Below are positions 1,327 to 49,901 of a DNA stretch of 64,000 nt, piece by piece. The stretch covers positions 124,001 to 188,000 of the forward strand of contig JAPLJF010000035.1 in assembly GCA_026388715.1 (NCBI GenBank). The letters run 5' to 3'. Made by a program: the position numbers and the translations under genes. Source of the DNA: Deltaproteobacteria bacterium. Its GTDB lineage: Bacteria > Desulfobacterota > Desulfobulbia > Desulfobulbales > Desulfocapsaceae. The first letter of the stretch is position 1. Every line of letters begins with the position of its first letter. The notes beneath the pieces are model-generated. The model did not search any database, was not told the origin of the DNA, and saw nothing but the letters and a program-made list of their open reading frames with translations.

Positions 1327-1337
1327 GTTCACTCTTC

Positions 1338-1480
1338 TTAGGTGCCATTATGAAATAAGCAGTGCTTTTTTGCTTATTTCATAATGGCACCTAATACCGC
1401 TTCAAAGAAACAGCCAATCTTTACCGGCTGTTTCTTTGAGAAGCGTCTGGCAGATAACATACAAGGAGTGGTTACGAAAC
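1338..1480 (+). repeat. Dispersed structured repeat, family A copy 1
   Basis: Two consecutive hairpins lie between the convergent trmFO and c-haem sensor genes. Hairpin 1 is a perfect 24-bp stem (1338-1361 with 1371-1394) around a 9-base loop; its outer part reads TTAGGTGCCATTA. Hairpin 2 (1398-1415 with 1426-1445) has a CAGCC/GGCTG apex and a loop starting AATCT. A tail with GATAACATACAAGGAG and GGTTACGAA follows. The same architecture recurs at 34391 and 45505. Function unknown. Confidence 0.8.
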
Positions 1481-1528
1481 AACCTCTATTCCTCTAACCA
1501 TTAGAGGAACACGGTTCTGGCAGAAAAA

Positions 1529-7259: not shown

Positions 7260-7350
7260 GCCAAGGCAGCTCCTGTAACGAAAGAATAAGAAATCAAAAA
7301 TAGCAATCAGCCATTGTCGAAAAATAATTATAACATTGGAAAATCATAAT

Positions 7351-7416
7351 CGGCATAAGGAGCCATAACGAAATGATCAATAACGTAATGATTATTTCGT
7401 AACGACTTCTAACATC
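7351..7416. repeat. Dispersed palindromic repeat, family B copy 1
   Basis: About 66 bases with CGGCATAAGGAGCCATAACG at one end and ATTTCGTAACGACTTCTAA at the other; TAACGAAAT and ATTTCGTAACG form the arms. It is about 70% identical by eye to 18556-18620. It lies between two minus-strand genes. Confidence 0.7.
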
Positions 7417-16269: not shown

Positions 16270-16454
16270 CAGCTTTTAGTGGACAGAGGCCGACCACGCA
16301 TGGTAAAAAGAATAAATTAAGATTACATTCATTTTTTATTCACATCTCATCAGGTTAACAGCTCAACAGAGTTGAAAAAAGAGAAATTTCTTTTCTTTTG
16401 CACTTGATGACCAGTCACATTGATCACCCGGCAAAAGCCGGTATGGGAGCCGAC

Positions 16455-17642
16455 ATGAATACCGTTCTTATTGTTGACGATGATGAAAGCTTTTTGCTCA
16501 GCCTGATTGATGGATTTAAATCCTACGAAGATCAATTTGGCATCATCACCGCCCATAACGGCGAGGAGGCCGTCGCCATCCTCGATGAACAGGAAATCCA
16601 TCTAGTCCTCACAGACCTGAAGATGCCCAAGATGGACGGCTTTGCGCTGGTCGCCCATCTCAGTGCCCATCACCCTGATCTCCCCGTCATTGTCATGACC
16701 GCCTTTGGCACTCCAGACATGGAAGAGAACCTGAAAGAAATCGGTGCGTTCCAGTATATCGAAAAGCCTATCGATTTCAATCTACTGGTCACCAAGATCC
16801 TGAAAGGGCTTGAAGGCCGCTCCAAGGGATTTATCACCGGAGTCTCTCTGGGATCATTTCTCCAGTTACTGGAACTGGACAAAAAAACATGTACCCTCAC
16901 CGTTCGTTCCGGAAAGAATCAAGGAACAATATACTTCAAAAACGGAGATCTCATGGATGCCAGCACCAATGATCTCACTGGGATCGATGCCGTCTTTGAG
17001 ATCATCAGATGGAAAAACGTAGAAATTATACTGGCGAATTCCTGCGACATTACTGAACAAAAAATCTCCGAATCTCTCGGCTTTATCCTGCTTGAAGGCA
17101 GCAGAAGACAGGACGAACGAGATACATCAACCGTAAGTCCTGCCCTCCCAAATAGCCCTGACGCCTCTCTTGGCTCCATAGATTTAACCGGCATAGACTT
17201 GGGTATTGATGATTTTCTCCATGATGACAACGTCCCTCCAACTTCATCACCAGCCGAGGTCATGACGTCTTCCACCATTGCAGCCTCAATACATGCCTCC
17301 AATCCGCTCTTGAAACAATTTATTGCTACGTTAGGAGCAATGCCCGAGATCAGCAACTCCATTCTTGTCTCCAAAGATGGGAACGTAATCCATACCGCCA
17401 AAACAAATGATGACCAACTTATTAATTTTATAACCTATCTCTCTGTTGTCAGTGAGCAGCTTCAAGTGGCTATGGGGGCCGGAGAACGGCAGTATGTCCT
17501 ATTTGGCTTGAACAGTGGGAAGAAGCTTCTTGTCCTCTGCGGCAAAGAGGTCGTGGTCGGCCTGGAAATCAGCAATACTACAGCCCCCGGTCCAATAGCT
17601 GCCGGATTACGACCCGTTTTAAACAGAATCAGTCTGCAATAA
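16455..17642 (+). CDS. Response regulator with receiver, PATAN (DUF4388) and roadblock-like domains
   Basis: 395 residues. The receiver (1-120) has VLIVDDDE, LVLTDLKMPKMDG with the phospho-acceptor Asp, VMTAFG and the KPID lysine. Next is a PATAN/DUF4388 domain (about 130-225, ITGVSLGSFLQLLELDKKT, GTIYFKNGDLMDA). An acidic linker leads to a C-terminal roadblock/LC7-like domain (about 290-395, SILVSKDGNVIHTAKT). No DNA-binding domain is present, so output is probably by protein contact. The start at 16455 follows GGGAG by five bases and directly begins the receiver strand; the open frame to 16398 is less likely. It sits between the kinase and a second roadblock-like gene and is probably co-transcribed with them. 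Confidence 0.87.
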   Translation: MNTVLIVDDDESFLLSLIDGFKSYEDQFGIITAHNGEEAVAILDEQEIHLVLTDLKMPKMDGFALVAHLSAHHPDLPVIVMTAFGTPDMEENLKEIGAFQYIEKPIDFNLLVTKILKGLEGRSKGFITGVSLGSFLQLLELDKKTCTLTVRSGKNQGTIYFKNGDLMDASTNDLTGIDAVFEIIRWKNVEIILANSCDITEQKISESLGFILLEGSRRQDERDTSTVSPALPNSPDASLGSIDLTGIDLGIDDFLHDDNVPPTSSPAEVMTSSTIAASIHASNPLLKQFIATLGAMPEISNSILVSKDGNVIHTAKTNDDQLINFITYLSVVSEQLQVAMGAGERQYVLFGLNSGKKLLVLCGKEVVVGLEISNTTAPGPIAAGLRPVLNRISLQ

Positions 17643-17644
17643 TA

Positions 17645-17745
17645 AAGAGCTGTTACGGCTCAACTGTTGTTTTTTGAACTCTTTCGTTACGACGGCCCCC
17701 GCAGAAACTATTATTGGGGTATCAATGAAGAGCGACCGGCTTTTT
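17645..17745 (+). repeat. Dispersed structured repeat, family C copy 1
   Basis: Lies in the gap between the receiver and roadblock genes. It contains GAGCTGTTACGGCTCAACTG, CTTTCGTTACGACGGCCCC and ATGAAGAGCGACCGGCTT followed by Ts, in that order. The same three blocks occur in order at 28235-28375. CCCC and GGGG segments between the blocks can pair. Confidence 0.7.
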
Positions 17746-17867
17746 TTATGTTTCTCTTGCCATTTAAACGGCAAAGTTTTTTTTCAGCTACTTACGACCA
17801 AAAGAGTATTTTTCAAAAAAAATACCCATAAAAGAACTGGGACACTGACCATCAAAGGAAATGCGCC

Positions 17868-18515
17868 ATGGATTCACTCCTCAAAGAAATCAATATGCTT
17901 CCCGGAGTTTTTGGCTGTTTTGTTTACACCGGCAATCAAGAGTTAGCGGCCGCAAAGCTTCCACCAATCTTCAAGGACAATACCATAAAAACCATGGGCA
18001 ATCTCCTCACCCGTACTATCAAAATGGGAGCCTTGGCCAACCTGGACATAGAGACAATTGAATTCAAATTCGATGTGTCACTGATCATTATCAAGCCCTT
18101 GGAACAAGGAGCCATTTTGGTGATGGTCTGTGAACCTATCGTTAATAAATCTCTCATCAACATGACCACTGCAATGTTGATAAACGACATCCAGGCCGCA
18201 ATCAACAGAGGCCCTGTGCAAGCCCAGAAGAGCCAAGCTCAGGTTGCAACTGCACCCCGGCAAGAACAGCCAAAAAAACAGGAAGCCGAGATAGACGCGG
18301 CACTAGCCCCTATACTGGAAAGCATCAAAGACGCTCTGGCTTATGCCATTGGTCCAATTGCCGGACAGGTCATGCTCGCCACCATTGAAACCTGGGCACA
18401 GCAAGGCCCGACATCCAAGCAACGACTGCCAGACCTTACCGCTCTGCTCTGCAAGGAAATCAACGACAAGGAACTGGAAAAGGAATTTAGGACCCAGATT
18501 AAGCCCTTCTCCTGA
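17868..18515 (+). CDS. Roadblock/LC7-like protein
   Basis: 215 residues. The N-terminal half (about 1-115) looks like a roadblock/LC7 (MglB-like) fold: INMLPGVFGCFVYTGNQELA, TIEFKFDVSLIIIKPLEQGA, ILVMVCEPIVNKSLINMTT. A Gln/Lys/Ala-rich linker follows (about 115-145). The C-terminal helical part (IDAALAPILESIKDALAYAI, then GPIAGQVMLATIETW) resembles a helical domain I have seen attached to such proteins, but I cannot name it with certainty. AAAGGAAATGCGCC precedes the ATG. Roadblock proteins commonly regulate small Ras-like GTPases, but no GTPase gene is in the window. It is the third gene of the kinase-receiver set. Confidence 0.68.
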   Translation: MDSLLKEINMLPGVFGCFVYTGNQELAAAKLPPIFKDNTIKTMGNLLTRTIKMGALANLDIETIEFKFDVSLIIIKPLEQGAILVMVCEPIVNKSLINMTTAMLINDIQAAINRGPVQAQKSQAQVATAPRQEQPKKQEAEIDAALAPILESIKDALAYAIGPIAGQVMLATIETWAQQGPTSKQRLPDLTALLCKEINDKELEKEFRTQIKPFS

Positions 18516-18555
18516 GCCCTTGGAATAAAAAACCGTTCCATTTATATGACAAGGT

Positions 18556-18620
18556 CGGGATAAGGATCCGTAACGAAATCGTTAAGAATGTAACAGTTAT
18601 TTCGTAACGACTCCTAATCC
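18556..18620. repeat. Dispersed palindromic repeat, family B copy 2
   Basis: Begins CGGGATAAGGATCCGTAACG and ends with TTTCGTAACGACTCCTAATC, with TAACGAAAT/ATTTCGTAACG as arms. Homologous to 7351-7416. It sits between convergent genes, where it could also act as a weak bidirectional terminator. Confidence 0.7.
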
Positions 18621-28150: not shown

Positions 28151-28236
28151 CGAAACCTCCGGTGGCTTCTCATTTTTTTCTCATTTAACATCCCCATCCT
28201 GGAAATGACAGGGACTATTACCAATTTCAGGAACTG

Positions 28237-28385
28237 TCACGAAGCAACTTGTCTCTTTATAACCCTTTTGTTACGACGGCCATGGATAAGATAGCATTGT
28301 GTCGCTCGCTAAGTGGACGCCCCGAAGGAAATGCCCTTGGGGTGCGGATGAAGAGCGACCGGCTTCTTATGCCGTTTTCGCCATT
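28237..28385 (+). repeat. Dispersed structured repeat, family C copy 2
   Basis: Fills much of the ftsH-carB gap. Blocks in order are CTGTCACGAAGCAACTTGTC, CTTTTGTTACGACGGCC and ATGAAGAGCGACCGGCTT, as at 17645. This copy has about 45 extra bases in which GTCGCTC pairs with GAGCGAC and CCCCGAAGG pairs with CCTTGGGG. Confidence 0.7.
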
Positions 28386-28558
28386 CAGATGTCCATATTA
28401 TTTACAAGGACTTAAAGTTACATCGTATCATAGTAAGACTAAACAAGACATTGTCGAGACAGAATCGTTCTTTTTCGACAGACCCATTTTCACATTATAG
28501 TTCTTCATCCCCCAAGAGCACTTCCTTCGGGGCATGTCCACCTTGGAACGAGCGACAC
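28299..28558. repeat. Imperfect long inverted repeat in the ftsH-carB gap
   Basis: The segment 28299-28342 (GTGTCGCTCG ... CCCTTGGGG) reappears in reverse complement at 28510-28558 with a few substitutions and two short insertions. The arms enclose about 167 bases. The second arm lies just before the carB 3' end. Confidence 0.75.
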
Positions 28559-28583
28559 TGGGGCAGCCATGTCCTGTATTTTT

Positions 28584-33356: not shown

Positions 33357-34391
33357 ATGCCTAAAATCAGATTTTCTTTATTCTATACCCTTACTCTTTT
33401 ATTCCTTCTATCTGGAGAAACACTCATGGCAGAGACACAACTGAAAGATGGCCTGTACGCCAAATTTATCACCGCCAAGGGCAATATTATCTGTGCCCTG
33501 GAATTTGAGAAGACCCCCCTCACTGTGGCTAACTTTGTCGGCCTGGCCGAGGGCACCAAAGAACTCGGCGGTGGCGCCGGCAAAGGAGGCGCCAGATTTT
33601 ATGATAATCTGACCTTCCATCGGGTTATCCCCGACTTCATGGTTCAGGGCGGCTGCCCTCTGGGTACTGGCACCGGCGGCCCCGGCTACACCTTCCCTGA
33701 CGAGTTTGACCCCACTCTCAAACACAGCGGCCCGGGTATCCTCTCCATGGCCAATGCCGGACCTGACACCAATGGTAGCCAGTTTTTCATCACCCATGTT
33801 GCCACCCCTTGGTTGGACGGCAAACACACAGTTTTTGGCCATGTGGTTGAAGGCCAGGACGTTGTCAATAAAATAAAAGGTAATGACAAACTGACGTCAG
33901 TGGAGATCATTCGCGTGGGCGCCAAGGCCCAGGCCTTTAAAAGTGACCAGGCAGCCTTTGACAAACTGCTGGCCAGCATGGACAAACGGGCTAAAGAAAA
34001 AGAGCTGTCAGCCGTAGAATCACAAGTCAAACAGATCAAGCAACGGTGGCCTGATGCCATCACCACCCCCTCCGGCCTCCAGTATGTCATCGTCCAGAAA
34101 GGCGATGGCACCGCCACCCCATCCTCTGGCACCATGGTCAAGGCCCACTATACAGGAAAGCTTCTGGACGGCACCAAATTTGACAGCTCCTATGACCGCG
34201 GCGAGCCCATCAGCTTTCCCGTTGGGCAGGGCCGGGTGATTAAAGGATGGGATGAGGCCTTTCTGACTATGACAAAGGGCGAGAAACGGGTTCTCATCAT
34301 CCCGGCAAAACTTGGCTATGGCCCGTCAGCACGCGGCCCTATCCCTCCCAACTCCACCATGGTCTTTGACGTAGAACTTGTTGATTTTTAG
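33357..34391 (+). CDS. Exported cyclophilin-FKBP fusion peptidyl-prolyl isomerase
   Basis: 344 residues with an N-terminal signal sequence ([20 protein letters not shown]). A cyclophilin domain (about 35-185) has [29 protein letters not shown] and [15 protein letters not shown] helical linker with charged residues follows. An FKBP domain ends the protein (about 250-344: [57 protein letters not shown]). Two unrelated prolyl isomerase folds in one chain suggest a periplasmic folding factor. AGGAGAAACC precedes the ATG. Repeat family A copy 2 begins at the last base of the stop codon. Confidence 0.94.
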
Positions 34392-34535
34392 ATGCCGTTA
34401 CAAAAAGAGCAAGGCTCTTATTGCTCTTTTTGTTTACGGCACCTTATGCCGCCTCCAAGAAACAGCAATCTTTTCAGCTGGTTCTTGGGGTGGCGTCTTG
34501 CATATAACACATAAATAACAGACAAGGAGCCGTTC
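34391..34535 (+). repeat. Dispersed structured repeat, family A copy 2
   Basis: Begins at the stop codon of the isomerase gene. Hairpin 1 pairs GATGCCGTTACAAAAAGAGC with GCTCTTTTTGTTTACGGCAC. Hairpin 2 pairs GCCGCCTCCAAGAAACAGC with GCTGGTTCTTGGGGTGGC around a loop starting AATCT. The tail has TCTTGCATATAACAC and GACAAGGAGCCGTT. Confidence 0.8.
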
Positions 34536-45487: not shown

Positions 45488-45504
45488 GTTAACTCCTGAA
45501 TTTT

Positions 45505-45655
45505 TAGGTGCCGTTACTAATCAAGCAAGGTCTTTTTCTTGCTTGATTAGTTTACGGCACCTTATGCCGCACCAAAAAAACAGCCAATCTGTTCCGACTG
45601 TTTTTTGGGTGCGGCGTCTTGCGGATAACATGCAAAACAACAGACAAGGTACCGT
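45505..45655 (+). repeat. Dispersed structured repeat, family A copy 3
   Basis: Upstream of iorA, next to its ribosome site. Hairpin 1 pairs AGGTGCCGTTACTAATCAAG with CTTGATTAGTTTACGGCACC (variable inner stem, conserved outer stem). Hairpin 2 pairs GCCGCACCAAAAAAACAG with CTGTTTTTTGGGTGCGGC around AATCTGTTCC-like loop. The tail has GCGGATAACATGC and GACAAGGTACCGTTAACGA. Confidence 0.8.
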
Positions 45656-45728
45656 TAACGACTTTGAATTATAGTAATTATTGAACAACACCTTAAAATG
45701 TTACATCTGTAGATAATCACTTCAAAGT

Positions 45729-47441
45729 TTACTTCTCCGGCGCCTTGAACTGCAAAGGATACACCAGCAGCATTGACTCATCGGCGGTCAGCACATCGCC
45801 AAAATTCCCTTGGGCAACAACACCGACATACAACTGTTCGACGCCATCTTTGAGTGGCAGATGATGGGAACGGGCGTCATAATCAACCACATATCCGCCA
45901 ATCTTTCTGGTACGCCAGAGCTCCTGAAGCCCGACGCCATTCCACTTCATCCCAATCATGGTCCCGGACTCAAAAATCTGGCTACTGCGAACCAGACTGG
46001 TCCAGGTAGGGGTATTGGCGTTGATGATGATATCATCAACGCCATCCCCATCAACATCAGTAACCAGGATCCGTGAGGGAATATATGTCTTTTCAAAAAG
46101 GATATCCGTCGTCCCCCCATCAGCCATTTTGGTGACCCCCCTGCTGGGGCCAGTCTGTTGCGTCATTTGTATTGCCGACATCCCACCGATAAACCGTTTA
46201 GTGGCGCCATAGCGCTCTTCGCTCTTCCACAGCACCTTGCCGCTTTGTTTCATCACCAGCAACTTGTTCCATTTATCAATAACTACAACCTCCCACTCAC
46301 CATCACCATCAAGATCCGCGAAAGCGAAATCAAAGATATTCACCCCGGCAGGCACCGGCAGACGCTCCCCGCCAACAAGCTGCGAACCTTCCTGGGACAG
46401 GATATAGATAGGGCCGCTAATGGCCACTCCCTCTGGTCCCGCCTTCTGACCAGCCAGCACCACCCCGAGTCCAGGCACCTTGACCGGACGGATATAATAG
46501 CGGGCATCATCAAAAAGGGTAGCAAACTCCTTGCCGTTCCATTCCACACCCATGGAGCCGGGCATGGTGGAATCAGCGGCGCTGATATAGATCTCGGCCT
46601 TGCCATTGCCGTTGAGATCGGCGACATTCACGGCATGAATCTTGTAGCGGGCAAGGGGTTTGATCTGGGCAAACTCCACAAGACGCCCTGCATTTAATTT
46701 ATAGACAATGACCTTTTCCCGATCCGCCATAACCACTTCCAATAAACCATCACCATCGACATCACCAATAGACATCCCTTCCAGAGATAACGGCACATTG
46801 CGGGTCTTGAAAAATTGACTGGAGCCTTCACTCCACAGCAGAGAGGAGTTTCCGAGACCGGCGGAGGCCCTGAAGGTGCGATCCGGATGGGCTGTTTGCA
46901 GGGCCCCTAACTCCGCATCGGCAACCGCCGCCTGTGGAGCCGCCCCACCCCCTGGCCGCTTTTTTCCGAAGGTTTTCTCCAGCACTGACCAGGCCAGGTT
47001 ATCAATGGCGGTCATCACATCCCCTTCCTTGACAGCTGTCGCGTAAAAGGTTTCACTGCTCTTTGTCGCCGTCGAATAAACGCGGGCATCAAAACTCATT
47101 CCACCGCCCAGCGAGGTGACACTCCCATACAGGAGATAATCCGCCCCCATCTTTCCAGCCAGAGCCTCCACCTGATTTGGATCTACCTTGCCCCCTGCCC
47201 CCAAAGCGGCATTCACTATTTTTTTATCAACCGCAACAACCCCGGCCTCCGCCGACAAACGACTGGCCAACATCTCACCCAGGCCATCACGAAGATAAGA
47301 CATATCCTTGGAGGCATTCACCGTAAAAGGAAGAAAGGCAACTGCCGAATGCTTTTCCGCAGCATGAGCCGGAATAAAAGAAAGGAGGAAAGAAAACAGG
47401 ATGCACAGACAAGAAACACGACACGGTGAATAGTTTTCCAT
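45729..47441 (-). CDS. Exported FG-GAP/VCBS-repeat protein
   Basis: 570 residues with a signal peptide (LCILFSFLLSFIPAHA). Residues about 30-155 resemble the periplasmic TolB/CsgG-like N-terminal domain (AVAFLPFTVNASKDMSYLRD, KMGADYLLYGSVTSLGGGMS). The rest has Ca-binding-loop FG-GAP motifs: IGDVDGDGLLEVVMAD, VADLNGNGKAEIYISA, FADLDGDGEWEVVVID and VTDVDGDGVDDIIINA, which should build a beta-propeller. Such proteins act in the envelope as scaffolds or binding proteins; no catalytic residues are seen. The gene stands alone, upstream neighbours being more than 450 bases away. Confidence 0.78.
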   Translation of the reverse strand: MENYSPCRVSCLCILFSFLLSFIPAHAAEKHSAVAFLPFTVNASKDMSYLRDGLGEMLASRLSAEAGVVAVDKKIVNAALGAGGKVDPNQVEALAGKMGADYLLYGSVTSLGGGMSFDARVYSTATKSSETFYATAVKEGDVMTAIDNLAWSVLEKTFGKKRPGGGAAPQAAVADAELGALQTAHPDRTFRASAGLGNSSLLWSEGSSQFFKTRNVPLSLEGMSIGDVDGDGLLEVVMADREKVIVYKLNAGRLVEFAQIKPLARYKIHAVNVADLNGNGKAEIYISAADSTMPGSMGVEWNGKEFATLFDDARYYIRPVKVPGLGVVLAGQKAGPEGVAISGPIYILSQEGSQLVGGERLPVPAGVNIFDFAFADLDGDGEWEVVVIDKWNKLLVMKQSGKVLWKSEERYGATKRFIGGMSAIQMTQQTGPSRGVTKMADGGTTDILFEKTYIPSRILVTDVDGDGVDDIIINANTPTWTSLVRSSQIFESGTMIGMKWNGVGLQELWRTRKIGGYVVDYDARSHHLPLKDGVEQLYVGVVAQGNFGDVLTADESMLLVYPLQFKAPEK

Positions 47442-47921
47442 AATTTATCCCATGCAAGAGAGGATGAACAGGGTATGCAGATAACTAAAGCTGCGGTGAA
47501 TGACAATACAAGCAGTACCTTTTTCCAGAAAAGGCTCTGCTAATCCTGATACTATAAGAAGCCATTCTGAACAACTGACATCTTTCTGAACATTACTTCA
47601 TAAACGCCGCTGTTCCGCCAGGGCAATCCCTGGAGCAAGTGGCACTATGCCAGACAAGCGAGACGAAAACGAAACTCCGTCCATGGCCGTCAACTGCACA
47701 GGAAGAGGGCCGCATATCTGAGCTTGCCCAGAGAAAATAAGGTACCCCGAAACGGGGAAAGCTGACAACTATTTTTAACAAAGGGCCTGTAAAGAATTAC
47801 AGAGACAAAATTGCGCTCAGATTTAGATCAAATTTAAGCGAAGTGATCGTCAATAGGGCGCTTGCTCTCTGAATAAATCGCAGATGCAGAGATACCTTCT
47901 CGTGTTTTCTGAGTCCTCAAA
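47442..47921. other. Intergenic region without recognised feature
   Basis: About 480 bases between two minus-strand genes. It holds a short GTACCCCGAAACGGGG hairpin and small ORFs without ribosome sites. I see no RNA gene or repeat copy, although a leader for the FG-GAP gene must lie here. Confidence 0.4.
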
Positions 47922-49901
47922 TCAGGTCGTCAAAAAACCGGCCTCAATGTCCTCAATCTCCGCCTGCGCCTCTTCCCACTGACCGTACCAACGCTCCAGA
48001 TGGCTTTTACATTGGTCGTATTCTGTACTGGTCCTGGCCCAGGCCTGCTCATCGTAATAGAGCTCCGGATCGGCCATCAGTACCTCTAATTCCTCCTTGC
48101 GGCCTTCTAGGGCAGCGATCTGTTTTTCCGCTTCTTCCGCCTTTTTCTTCCAGGGAGCAAGTTTACGGCTCCGCTCCTTCCGCTCCAGTGCCTCCTGCTG
48201 CCGCCTCTCCTTTTTGGATTCCCGTGAATGTTCAACCCCGCCGCCATCGGCAAGTACCTGGGCCTGAGGCACCGAGATCTTCTTTTCTGCATCTTCCAGA
48301 TCTACCTTGTGCAGATATTCAGTTATATTCCCTTCATATAGGACGACCTGACCATCTTTGACCAACAGCACCTTATTGACAAAGCTATCAAGGAAATAGC
48401 GGTTATGTGAGACCACCACGATACAGCCGTCATACTGGGCCATGGCCTCCTGCAGCACCTCCTGGGAGCTCATATCCAGATGGTTAGTCGGCTCATCCAG
48501 GAGCATCAAATTGGCGGGCTTGGCAATCATCCTGGCCAGGGCCAGCCGGCTTTTTTCGCCGCCGGACAGCACTGCCACCTTCTTGTCCACCTCTTCACCC
48601 CTGAACAGAAAGGCTCCCAGCAGAGAGCGCATCCTGGTGATGGTCAGATCGGCGCCGGAAAGCGCCATGGTCTCCAGGGCGGACAGAGTGGGCGATAACT
48701 CCTGAGCCTGATGCTGGCCAAAATAGGAGAGCTGCACATTATGGCCCAGCTTGATCTCACCCGCGTCATAGTCCAGTTGACCGCCGATGATCTTGACCAG
48801 GGTTGACTTGCCGGCGCCATTGACCCCCACCACCGCCACCTTATCGCCACGCTGCAGTTGCAAATTCACATCGTGAAAGATCTGCCGCCCCTGATAGCTT
48901 TTGCTCAATCCCTCAACCTGCAACACATCACGACCGGATGGGGGGGCGGGCGGAAAGGTGAAGCGAATCTGCTGTTCATCGTCGGACAACTCGATCATAT
49001 CAATCTTGTCAAGCTGCTTCACCCGGCTCTGCACCTGTTTGGCCTTGGTGGATTTGGCCCGGAAACGCTCGACAAAACGCATGGTCTGCTTGATCTTGGC
49101 CTGCTGATTATCATAGGCCCCCTTTTCGATAATCCGGCGCTCCGCCTTTTCCTTGACATAATAGGAGTAATTCCCCTTATAGACCGACAGCCTGCCCATA
49201 CTCAGCTCCCAGGTTGTCTTGGTGATCTTGTCGAGAAAGGTCCGGTCATGGGAGATCACCACCATGGCCCCCTGACAGGAACGAAAGAACTCCTCCACCC
49301 AGGTCAGTGACTCCAGATCCAGATGATTGGTCGGCTCATCCAGGAGCAGCAGAGAGGGCGAAACCAGCAGCATCTTGGCCAGCATCAGGCGCATGACCCA
49401 GCCGCCGGAAAAGCTGGTCACCGGCGCGTCCATATCCGTCTGCTTGAAGCCCAGCCCCAGCAGCACCTTTTCCACCCTGGCCCGGATGGTATAGATATCA
49501 TGCCCTTCCAGCTGATGCTGCAGCTCCCCCTGCCGCTCCACCATGGCCGCAAAGAGCTCGGATTCCTGATCCGTCACCGCCAGCTGGTCATGCAAAAAAT
49601 CCGCCTCCTTCTGCAAGGTCAGGATCTCATCAAAGGCGCTCTCCGCCTCCTGGTACAAGGTGTTCTCCGAAACCAGGGCACTGCTTTCCTGGGGCAGGTA
49701 GCCCACGGTAAAATGTTTGGACTTGGTGATCACCCCGTCATCACAGGCGGCGACCCCGGCCATGATCTTGAGCAGGGTTGACTTGCCGGCCCCGTTGACC
49801 CCGATGAGACCAATGCGGTCACCGGCATGGGCCCGTTGGGAGAGATCCTTGAACAGATGTTTCTCGCCAAAGCGGACATCCAGATGATTAATTGACAGCA
49901 T
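47922..49901 (-). CDS. ABC-F family ATPase
   Basis: 659 residues with two ABC domains and no membrane segments. Walker A sites are GVNGAGKSTLLKI and GVNGAGKSTLVKI; signature motifs are FSGGWVMRLMLAKM and LSGGEKSRLALARM; Walker B-type LLLLDEPTNHLDLESL and LMLLDEPTNHLDMSS. An inter-domain linker with Lys/Arg and a charged C-terminal coiled coil (about 560-659, KKKAEEAEKQIAALEGRKEE) follow, as in Uup/YheS/YdiF-type members. ABC-F proteins act on ribosomes or in translation quality control; resistance roles cannot be told from sequence. Its start overlaps the end of the upstream radical SAM gene by 14 bases, implying coupling. Confidence 0.93.
   Translation of the reverse strand: MLSINHLDVRFGEKHLFKDLSQRAHAGDRIGLIGVNGAGKSTLLKIMAGVAACDDGVITKSKHFTVGYLPQESSALVSENTLYQEAESAFDEILTLQKEADFLHDQLAVTDQESELFAAMVERQGELQHQLEGHDIYTIRARVEKVLLGLGFKQTDMDAPVTSFSGGWVMRLMLAKMLLVSPSLLLLDEPTNHLDLESLTWVEEFFRSCQGAMVVISHDRTFLDKITKTTWELSMGRLSVYKGNYSYYVKEKAERRIIEKGAYDNQQAKIKQTMRFVERFRAKSTKAKQVQSRVKQLDKIDMIELSDDEQQIRFTFPPAPPSGRDVLQVEGLSKSYQGRQIFHDVNLQLQRGDKVAVVGVNGAGKSTLVKIIGGQLDYDAGEIKLGHNVQLSYFGQHQAQELSPTLSALETMALSGADLTITRMRSLLGAFLFRGEEVDKKVAVLSGGEKSRLALARMIAKPANLMLLDEPTNHLDMSSQEVLQEAMAQYDGCIVVVSHNRYFLDSFVNKVLLVKDGQVVLYEGNITEYLHKVDLEDAEKKISVPQAQVLADGGGVEHSRESKKERRQQEALERKERSRKLAPWKKKAEEAEKQIAALEGRKEELEVLMADPELYYDEQAWARTSTEYDQCKSHLERWYGQWEEAQAEIEDIEAGFLTT

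Follow-up and report, generated by a model that had tools for sequence, protein, structure and literature searches.

Palindromic elements inserted in frame are known chiefly from Rickettsia (the Rickettsia palindromic elements, RPEs), and the short repeats ERIC, Correia and BOX are MITEs. The RPEs are about 150 bp long, and the accessible portion of a 2024 review treats in-frame palindromic insertion beyond Rickettsia as only "conceivable" (PMC10969869). A 2013 survey, in the sections available, reports REPs inside genes in several other bacterial species and describes the GTAG/CGTC-tagged REPs as hairpin repeats of 20-40 bp that occur as dimers or clusters, some of them within repair and synthesis ORFs (PMC3733652); its text contains no word beginning Desulf, Geobacter, Pelobacter or delta-proteobacteria. 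According to the available part of their description, PARCELs are tandem coding repeats of 25 residues that show dyad symmetry at the DNA level and are linked to mobile DNA (PMC2996958).

The window considered here is the whole 64-kb stretch of DNA that was analyzed. An earlier note had described two copies of a repeat, family C, at 17645 and 28237, the first within a signaling operon and the second between ftsH and carB. Both the positions and the settings proved right: in each copy CGTTACGACGG (TGTTACGACGG in the second) is followed by GAAGAGCGACCGGCTT, with the order kept and the spacing differing. Family C is in fact two nested repeats, an outer element A and an inner element B, with B entering genes in frame, and the two segments 17643-17800 and 28225-28414 both belong to this dispersed family, each as a decayed copy. 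Comparison of copies and genomes demonstrated dispersal, a fixed site, compensatory changes in the hairpins, an in-frame location in core genes, and gain and loss between species. We put the probability that family C consists of two palindromic, non-autonomous elements, one nested in the other, A being intergenic and B occurring at a fixed site in A and elsewhere, at about 0.82. Most copies of A and B are old and decayed, and movement is deduced here from sequence comparison.

Like the RPEs as presented in the accessible portion of the review, B is palindromic and occurs in frame in many unrelated genes as well as between genes (PMC10969869). Unlike the RPEs covered there, B is 54 bp long, forms exact tandem arrays and docks at one site in another repeat; it also comes from another bacterial group (the named record of a relative is a deltaproteobacterial MAG). 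Intragenic palindromic repeats are already known, and what appears to be distinctive here is the nested docking site together with the 18-codon tandem unit. Literature searches with the B peptides and DNA and by topic, in which topic matches were judged by title or abstract opening, found no description of A or B.

The copies in the window are collected in Table 1. The composite at 17643 lies directly 3' of the stop codon of a response-regulator gene (16398-17642), while the composite at 28225 carries an additional CCCC..GGGG hairpin within the B loop and its right end is, by reading, GGACTTA (28408-28414). Both rank among the most decayed of the family, and the A profile scored 12.1 and 16.6 bits on their left arms (best of 20 Markov-shuffled windows, 7.5 bits). 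The minus-strand A copies at 7307 and 18512 are better ones. For the B fragment at 47626, the 14.1 bits compare with a best score of 11.8 bits in 20 shuffled windows.

Table 1. Copies and relatives of elements A and B in the 64-kb window.
Feature	Position	Strand	Evidence and remarks
A+B composite, decayed	17643-17800	+	A-profile match 17643-17692; B 3'-end match 17725-17737; right end imprecise
A+B composite, ftsH-carB gap	28225-28414	+	A-profile matches 28225-28276 and 28360-28406; B match 28277-28310
Partial inverted B beside the 28225 composite	28541-28576	-	B profile 24.6 bits; missing from G008
A without B, near-complete	7307-7413	-	A profile 88.2 bits; syntenic place in G008 empty
A without B, near-complete, at the end of gene 17868-18515	18512-18618	-	A profile 65.3 bits
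A2-type relative with A's left hairpin arm and another right part	1336-1510	+	A profile 1336-1401
A2-type left hairpin, element continuing to about 34540	34386-34452	+	A profile 24.7 bits
A2-type left hairpin (element 45502-45660)	45502-45570	+	A profile 19.7 bits
B fragment between ORFs 45729-47441 and 47922-49901	47626-47652	-	B profile 14.1 bits

Whether the two copies first described were the only ones had been raised as a check, and pattern and consensus searches of the window's own genome yielded many more. Exact GAGCGACCGGCTT alone occurs three times in this 2.97-Mb genome (reversed-pattern control, 0). In one respect the earlier description failed: the segment 13603-13624, taken as a third family member, gave no hit with either the A or the B profile at E<=1. 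These bases form the 3' arm of a compact terminator-like hairpin, AAAAAGCCaGTC..GACcGGCTTTTT (z -6.6), and only a few of them are shared with the family. A terminator role for the 17643 copy was considered and rejected, as the downstream T-run is lost in G004 and altered in G009.

Element A, as judged from aligned copies, is an intergenic palindromic element of about 105 bp, TTAGGAGCCGTTACGAAAT...ATTTCGTTACGGCTCCTTATGCCGGTCACGGCATTTCAATGTTACAGTTATTTTTGAACAACGGCTTA, with one long and one small hairpin (z -7.5 when folded as DNA). The own genome holds at least 44 A matches, at least 35 of them spanning at least 90 of 110 positions, and these counts are lower bounds obtained with 40 of 150 candidates scored. 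Of 58 related genomes, 33 have a match to the A/B consensus, among them every one of the 17 in the genus; beyond the genus, a second genus of the family contributes two genomes, and other families within the order gave weaker matches. Alignment A1 comprised the 28 of 30 loci that passed a length filter. In the A hairpin 92% of the cells are paired and 13 are double-changed, a number reached in none of 500 shuffles, and sliding the partner abolished the signal; the test, like those for the B hairpins, ignores relatedness. Almost all of the A copies (27 of 28) are free of a covering long ORF, and the flanking genes are oriented ++ in nine cases, -- in five, +- in six, -+ in five, -? in one and ?- in one, the remaining copy being the covered one. 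An RNA rather than a DNA hairpin was rejected for A: when the pair table was read informally, departures to G-U were about as common as those to A-C, and no transcribed strand was favored. A2-type elements have the left hairpin arm of A and a different right part, AAGAAACAGCCAATC....

In being short, intergenic and palindromic with imperfect terminal inverted repeats, A resembles the MITEs ERIC, Correia and BOX as characterized in the accessible portion of the review (PMC10969869), but it differs from them in serving as the site for a second element. The terminal repeats, TTAGGAGCCGTT / AACGGCTTA, speak for a rival explanation in which A is a MITE derived from a DDE transposon (e.g., IS630-like) and B is a part of A that spread secondarily. 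A TTA/TCA duplication fits this rival at one A site, 18512-18618 as compared with G009, the remaining sites being too diverged. However, within one copy the A termini combine a constant 5' TTA with a variable 3' trinucleotide, which runs against the prediction of a simple duplication, and no full-length relative of A was met with in a transposase search that covered Y1_Tnp. We consider a DDE origin possible, at somewhat less than even odds.

Element B is 54 bp long, reads GCAGGCCATGGATGGCCYAGTGTCGCTCGCTCCAKGGATGGATRAAGAGCGACC and contains two hairpins, GGCCAT/ATGGCC and GTCGCTC/GAGCGAC (fold z -3.3). Hairpin 1 showed 15 double changes compared to a maximum of 11 in 2000 shuffles, and hairpin 2 showed 13 among 101 distinct copies compared to a maximum of 8 in 5000 shuffles, with the variants GTCACTC/GAGTGAC, GCCGCTC/GAGCGGC and GTCGCGC/GCGCGAC. 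In a smaller set of 54 copies the compensatory signal of hairpin 2 alone was below significance. Allowing at most three mismatches, 132 B matches were found in 15 of the 17 congeners (control, 0 in all 17); the two congeners lacking a match are 55% and 63% complete, and several of the compared genomes are incomplete. B is frequently found without A, often in head-to-tail arrays whose units are exactly 54 bp apart. One congener, G015, has 35 matches, several of them as arrays of two or three, and is possibly the species with the greatest B activity. Four contigs of G005 (C164, C282, C295 and C381) start or stop in or near B; draft assemblies therefore probably break at B arrays, and B is probably undercounted.

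Within A, B has a single site, CGTTAC-B-GGCTCC, in the 3' arm of the main hairpin. All 25 of the distinct B copies that adjoin an A arm are on the same strand and none is on the opposite strand, while 78 copies in the fetched loci stand without A; the loci were fetched by similarity, so that 25 and 78 are not genome-wide proportions. Given this site, the A/B junctions are CGTTACGACGG on the left and GAGCGACCGGC on the right. The loop of some B copies holds a further CCCC..GGGG hairpin, which is the segment that the earlier note had proposed to pair. Such pairing is possible, less decayed copies showing CCCCGAAGG..CCTTGGGG, and the extra hairpin explains why the spacing of the blocks differs. 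In congeners, A2-type relatives have B at the corresponding site (L119, L124 and L126). For 7 of 14 composite B copies the nearest neighbor was also a composite (2.8 expected; 14 of 500 shuffles as high). Composite copies are thus closer to one another than chance would have it, so shared descent and repeated insertion are probably both at work, and the composites may descend in part from one ancestral A+B.

B was also seen in two more repeated contexts, ...GACGAAGGATGC..AAC-B and ...GTGACGAAGAAGAC-B-GGCC (L189, L203, L125 and L197; L190, L191 and L202). These are perhaps additional host elements for B.

Sites empty in relatives, another check suggested at the outset, were readily found. Of 15 congener loci, 4 have the 17643 composite, and it is in these that the flanking gene is most similar; the composite is shared with G008, G009 and G004 only, and its blocks are missing from the other 11. 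The 28225 composite occurs in the window genome only and is missing from the three nearest congeners; G009, G008 and G004 keep an intact short gap, G001 has its own A+B elsewhere in the ftsH-carB gap, and the contig of G005 stops at that gap. About 170 bp corresponding to the A2 element at 1336 are missing from G008, and the A copy at 18512 is common to G008 while the sites in G009 and G012 are empty. These empty sites in close relatives indicate gain at different times. Behind the response-regulator gene, several of the composite-free congeners show a short hairpin, GGAACC...GGTTC (L142-L156).

States of one gene before and after the arrival of B can be compared in murG, which was obtained from 14 congeners. 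Five of them carry B units at one common position (two in G002; two in G012, one of which is 9 bp shorter; one each in G006, G016 and G000) and nine carry none. The insertions are exact multiples of 3 and, as compared with G008, the target duplication is at most 1-2 bp. The site lies between two glycosyltransferase domains, and PDB MurG chains align there in two separate stretches. In an AlphaFold model of MurG from G002, which contains two B units, residues 181-220 have a mean pLDDT of 26-29 and are predicted as coil from 187; this falls in a low-confidence stretch (136-225) of a model with an overall mean pLDDT of 66, and the model is weakly consistent with such an insertion. With murG at zero, one or two units, the 17 related genomes would make tolerance, spread and peptide function in essential enzymes directly testable.

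Because target duplication is nearly absent (none or at most 1-2 bp in murG), a Y1 (RAYT) enzyme is attractive, and A and B might then be a GTAG-REP-like REP/BIME mobilized by a RAYT (Y1 tyrosine) transposase. Hairpin repeats with tandem and inverted copies fit that explanation, as does the presence of Y1_Tnp genes in all 17 genomes of the genus, and in the available sections of the survey the CGTC-REPs, like A and B, are without a transposase neighbor (PMC3733652). Yet B, at 54 bp, differs from the REPs described in those sections in having two hairpins, a fixed site in A and a consensus, GCAGGCC...GCGACC, without GTAG/CGTC, neither of its ends being so tagged. In a REPtron the RAYT gene is flanked by repeats, whereas here neither A nor B occurred within about 1.5 kb of Y1_Tnp at any of 30 loci (88.9 kb; the genus yielded 75 Y1_Tnp matches, of which these 30 were covered), and all that the own genome contains of a Y1_Tnp gene is a fragment. 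On balance, mobilization by a RAYT seems unlikely.

murG is one of many genes that contain B. When the B copies were limited to the 56 flanked on either side by 200 bases or more, 35 had a reading frame open for 40 codons or more in both directions; 14 of these 35 are read in frame +1 and another 14 in frame -0. When 30 B-bearing ORFs were compared with Pfam, 22 matched, representing 18 families, while L181, L033, L039, L199, L205, L185, L197 and L113 had no match. The families, named from the Pfam match and sequence reading, are MurG, MurI, MurE, MutS, MutL, PurF, an HrpA-like helicase, a PotA-like ABC protein, a PP-loop ATPase, an Sfp-type transferase, glycogen synthase, DegV/Dak2, an M20 peptidase, GT2, a TPR protein, DUF7826, HDOD-GGDEF and a phage terminase. 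Core genes with B in frame thus include murG, murE, murI, mutS, mutL, hrpA, purF and glgA, and the B stretch falls within a single domain match in MutS_I, TOBE_2, DEAD, ATP_bind_3, Peptidase_M20 and Dak2.

Coding sequence contains B in either orientation and in three or more frames; two of the five open frames are used by 15 of the 18 families (p 2e-4, equal use being assumed and the sites not being a random sample). The HDOD-GGDEF ORF (L126) was scored in frame +2 with its B in an A2-like leader, and without it the proportion is 15 of 17. The two favored frames encode QAMDGPVSLAPGMDEERP and GRSSSIPGASDTGPSMAC, which contain no aromatic residues, compared to one to three in the other open frames; this suggests selection against insertions in the other frames. 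A codon-wobble excess in B was considered and discarded: counted by position modulo 3, substitutions numbered 67, 114 and 100, the wobble class having the fewest, and hypervariable loop bases confound the comparison. B thus appears to be a selfish repeat that lengthens working proteins in steps of 18 residues.

Head-to-tail 54-bp arrays that encode 18 residues per unit could also be expected if B were a PARCEL-like tandem protein repeat that arose by in-gene slippage, with the intergenic copies as fallout. This rival is largely refuted by the single B copies in many unrelated single-copy core genes, by the one exact site in A and by the use of both orientations and at least three frames, and we hold it to be very improbable. 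PARCELs, in the available part of their description, occupy ORFs without assigned function and membrane proteins, whereas the 18-residue B is found in conserved core enzymes (PMC2996958). Hardly tenable is a family of leader riboswitches or other cis-regulatory RNAs, which has in its favor a stem conserved with compensatory changes and one copy in a signaling operon, but against it the lack of any Rfam match at the gathering score (chance matches only, E up to 10), A copies in every relative gene orientation, sites that vary between species with random occupancy among congeners, and B in coding sequence in both orientations. No Rfam family matches either of the two copies first described, which also answers whether they belong to a described riboswitch or terminator; the preference of the earlier note for a dispersed element over a riboswitch is supported by this, by the further copies and by the empty sites.

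The nested pair of palindromic elements, A and B, is thus the reading we prefer, and a route by which it could have arisen can be sketched. A trans-acting enzyme would recognize the hairpins and place B after a C, duplicating little or nothing of the target. Within genes, insertions would survive mainly where the frame gives a polar, aromatic-free peptide, while A would act as a harmless harbor in which a landing B survives. Only tentatively, and as a whole at less than even odds, do we propose that B is an 18-codon selfish element whose commonest frames are tuned to polar, aromatic-free peptides, that it is moved by an undescribed enzyme without detectable target duplication, that it passes through phages and that A is its dedicated landing site. 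If so, free-living bacteria would have in B an equivalent of the Rickettsia elements, and the harbor A would let it persist without harming genes.

With regard to carriage on other replicons, the 161-nt A+B consensus had no match in plasmids, two B units had no match in plasmids or phages, and the gapped A+B pattern had none among viral contigs. In one viral contig, IMGVR_UViG_3300040971_000305 (L239:2632-2667), a terminase-like gene contains B in frame close to its start, and phages may therefore carry B.
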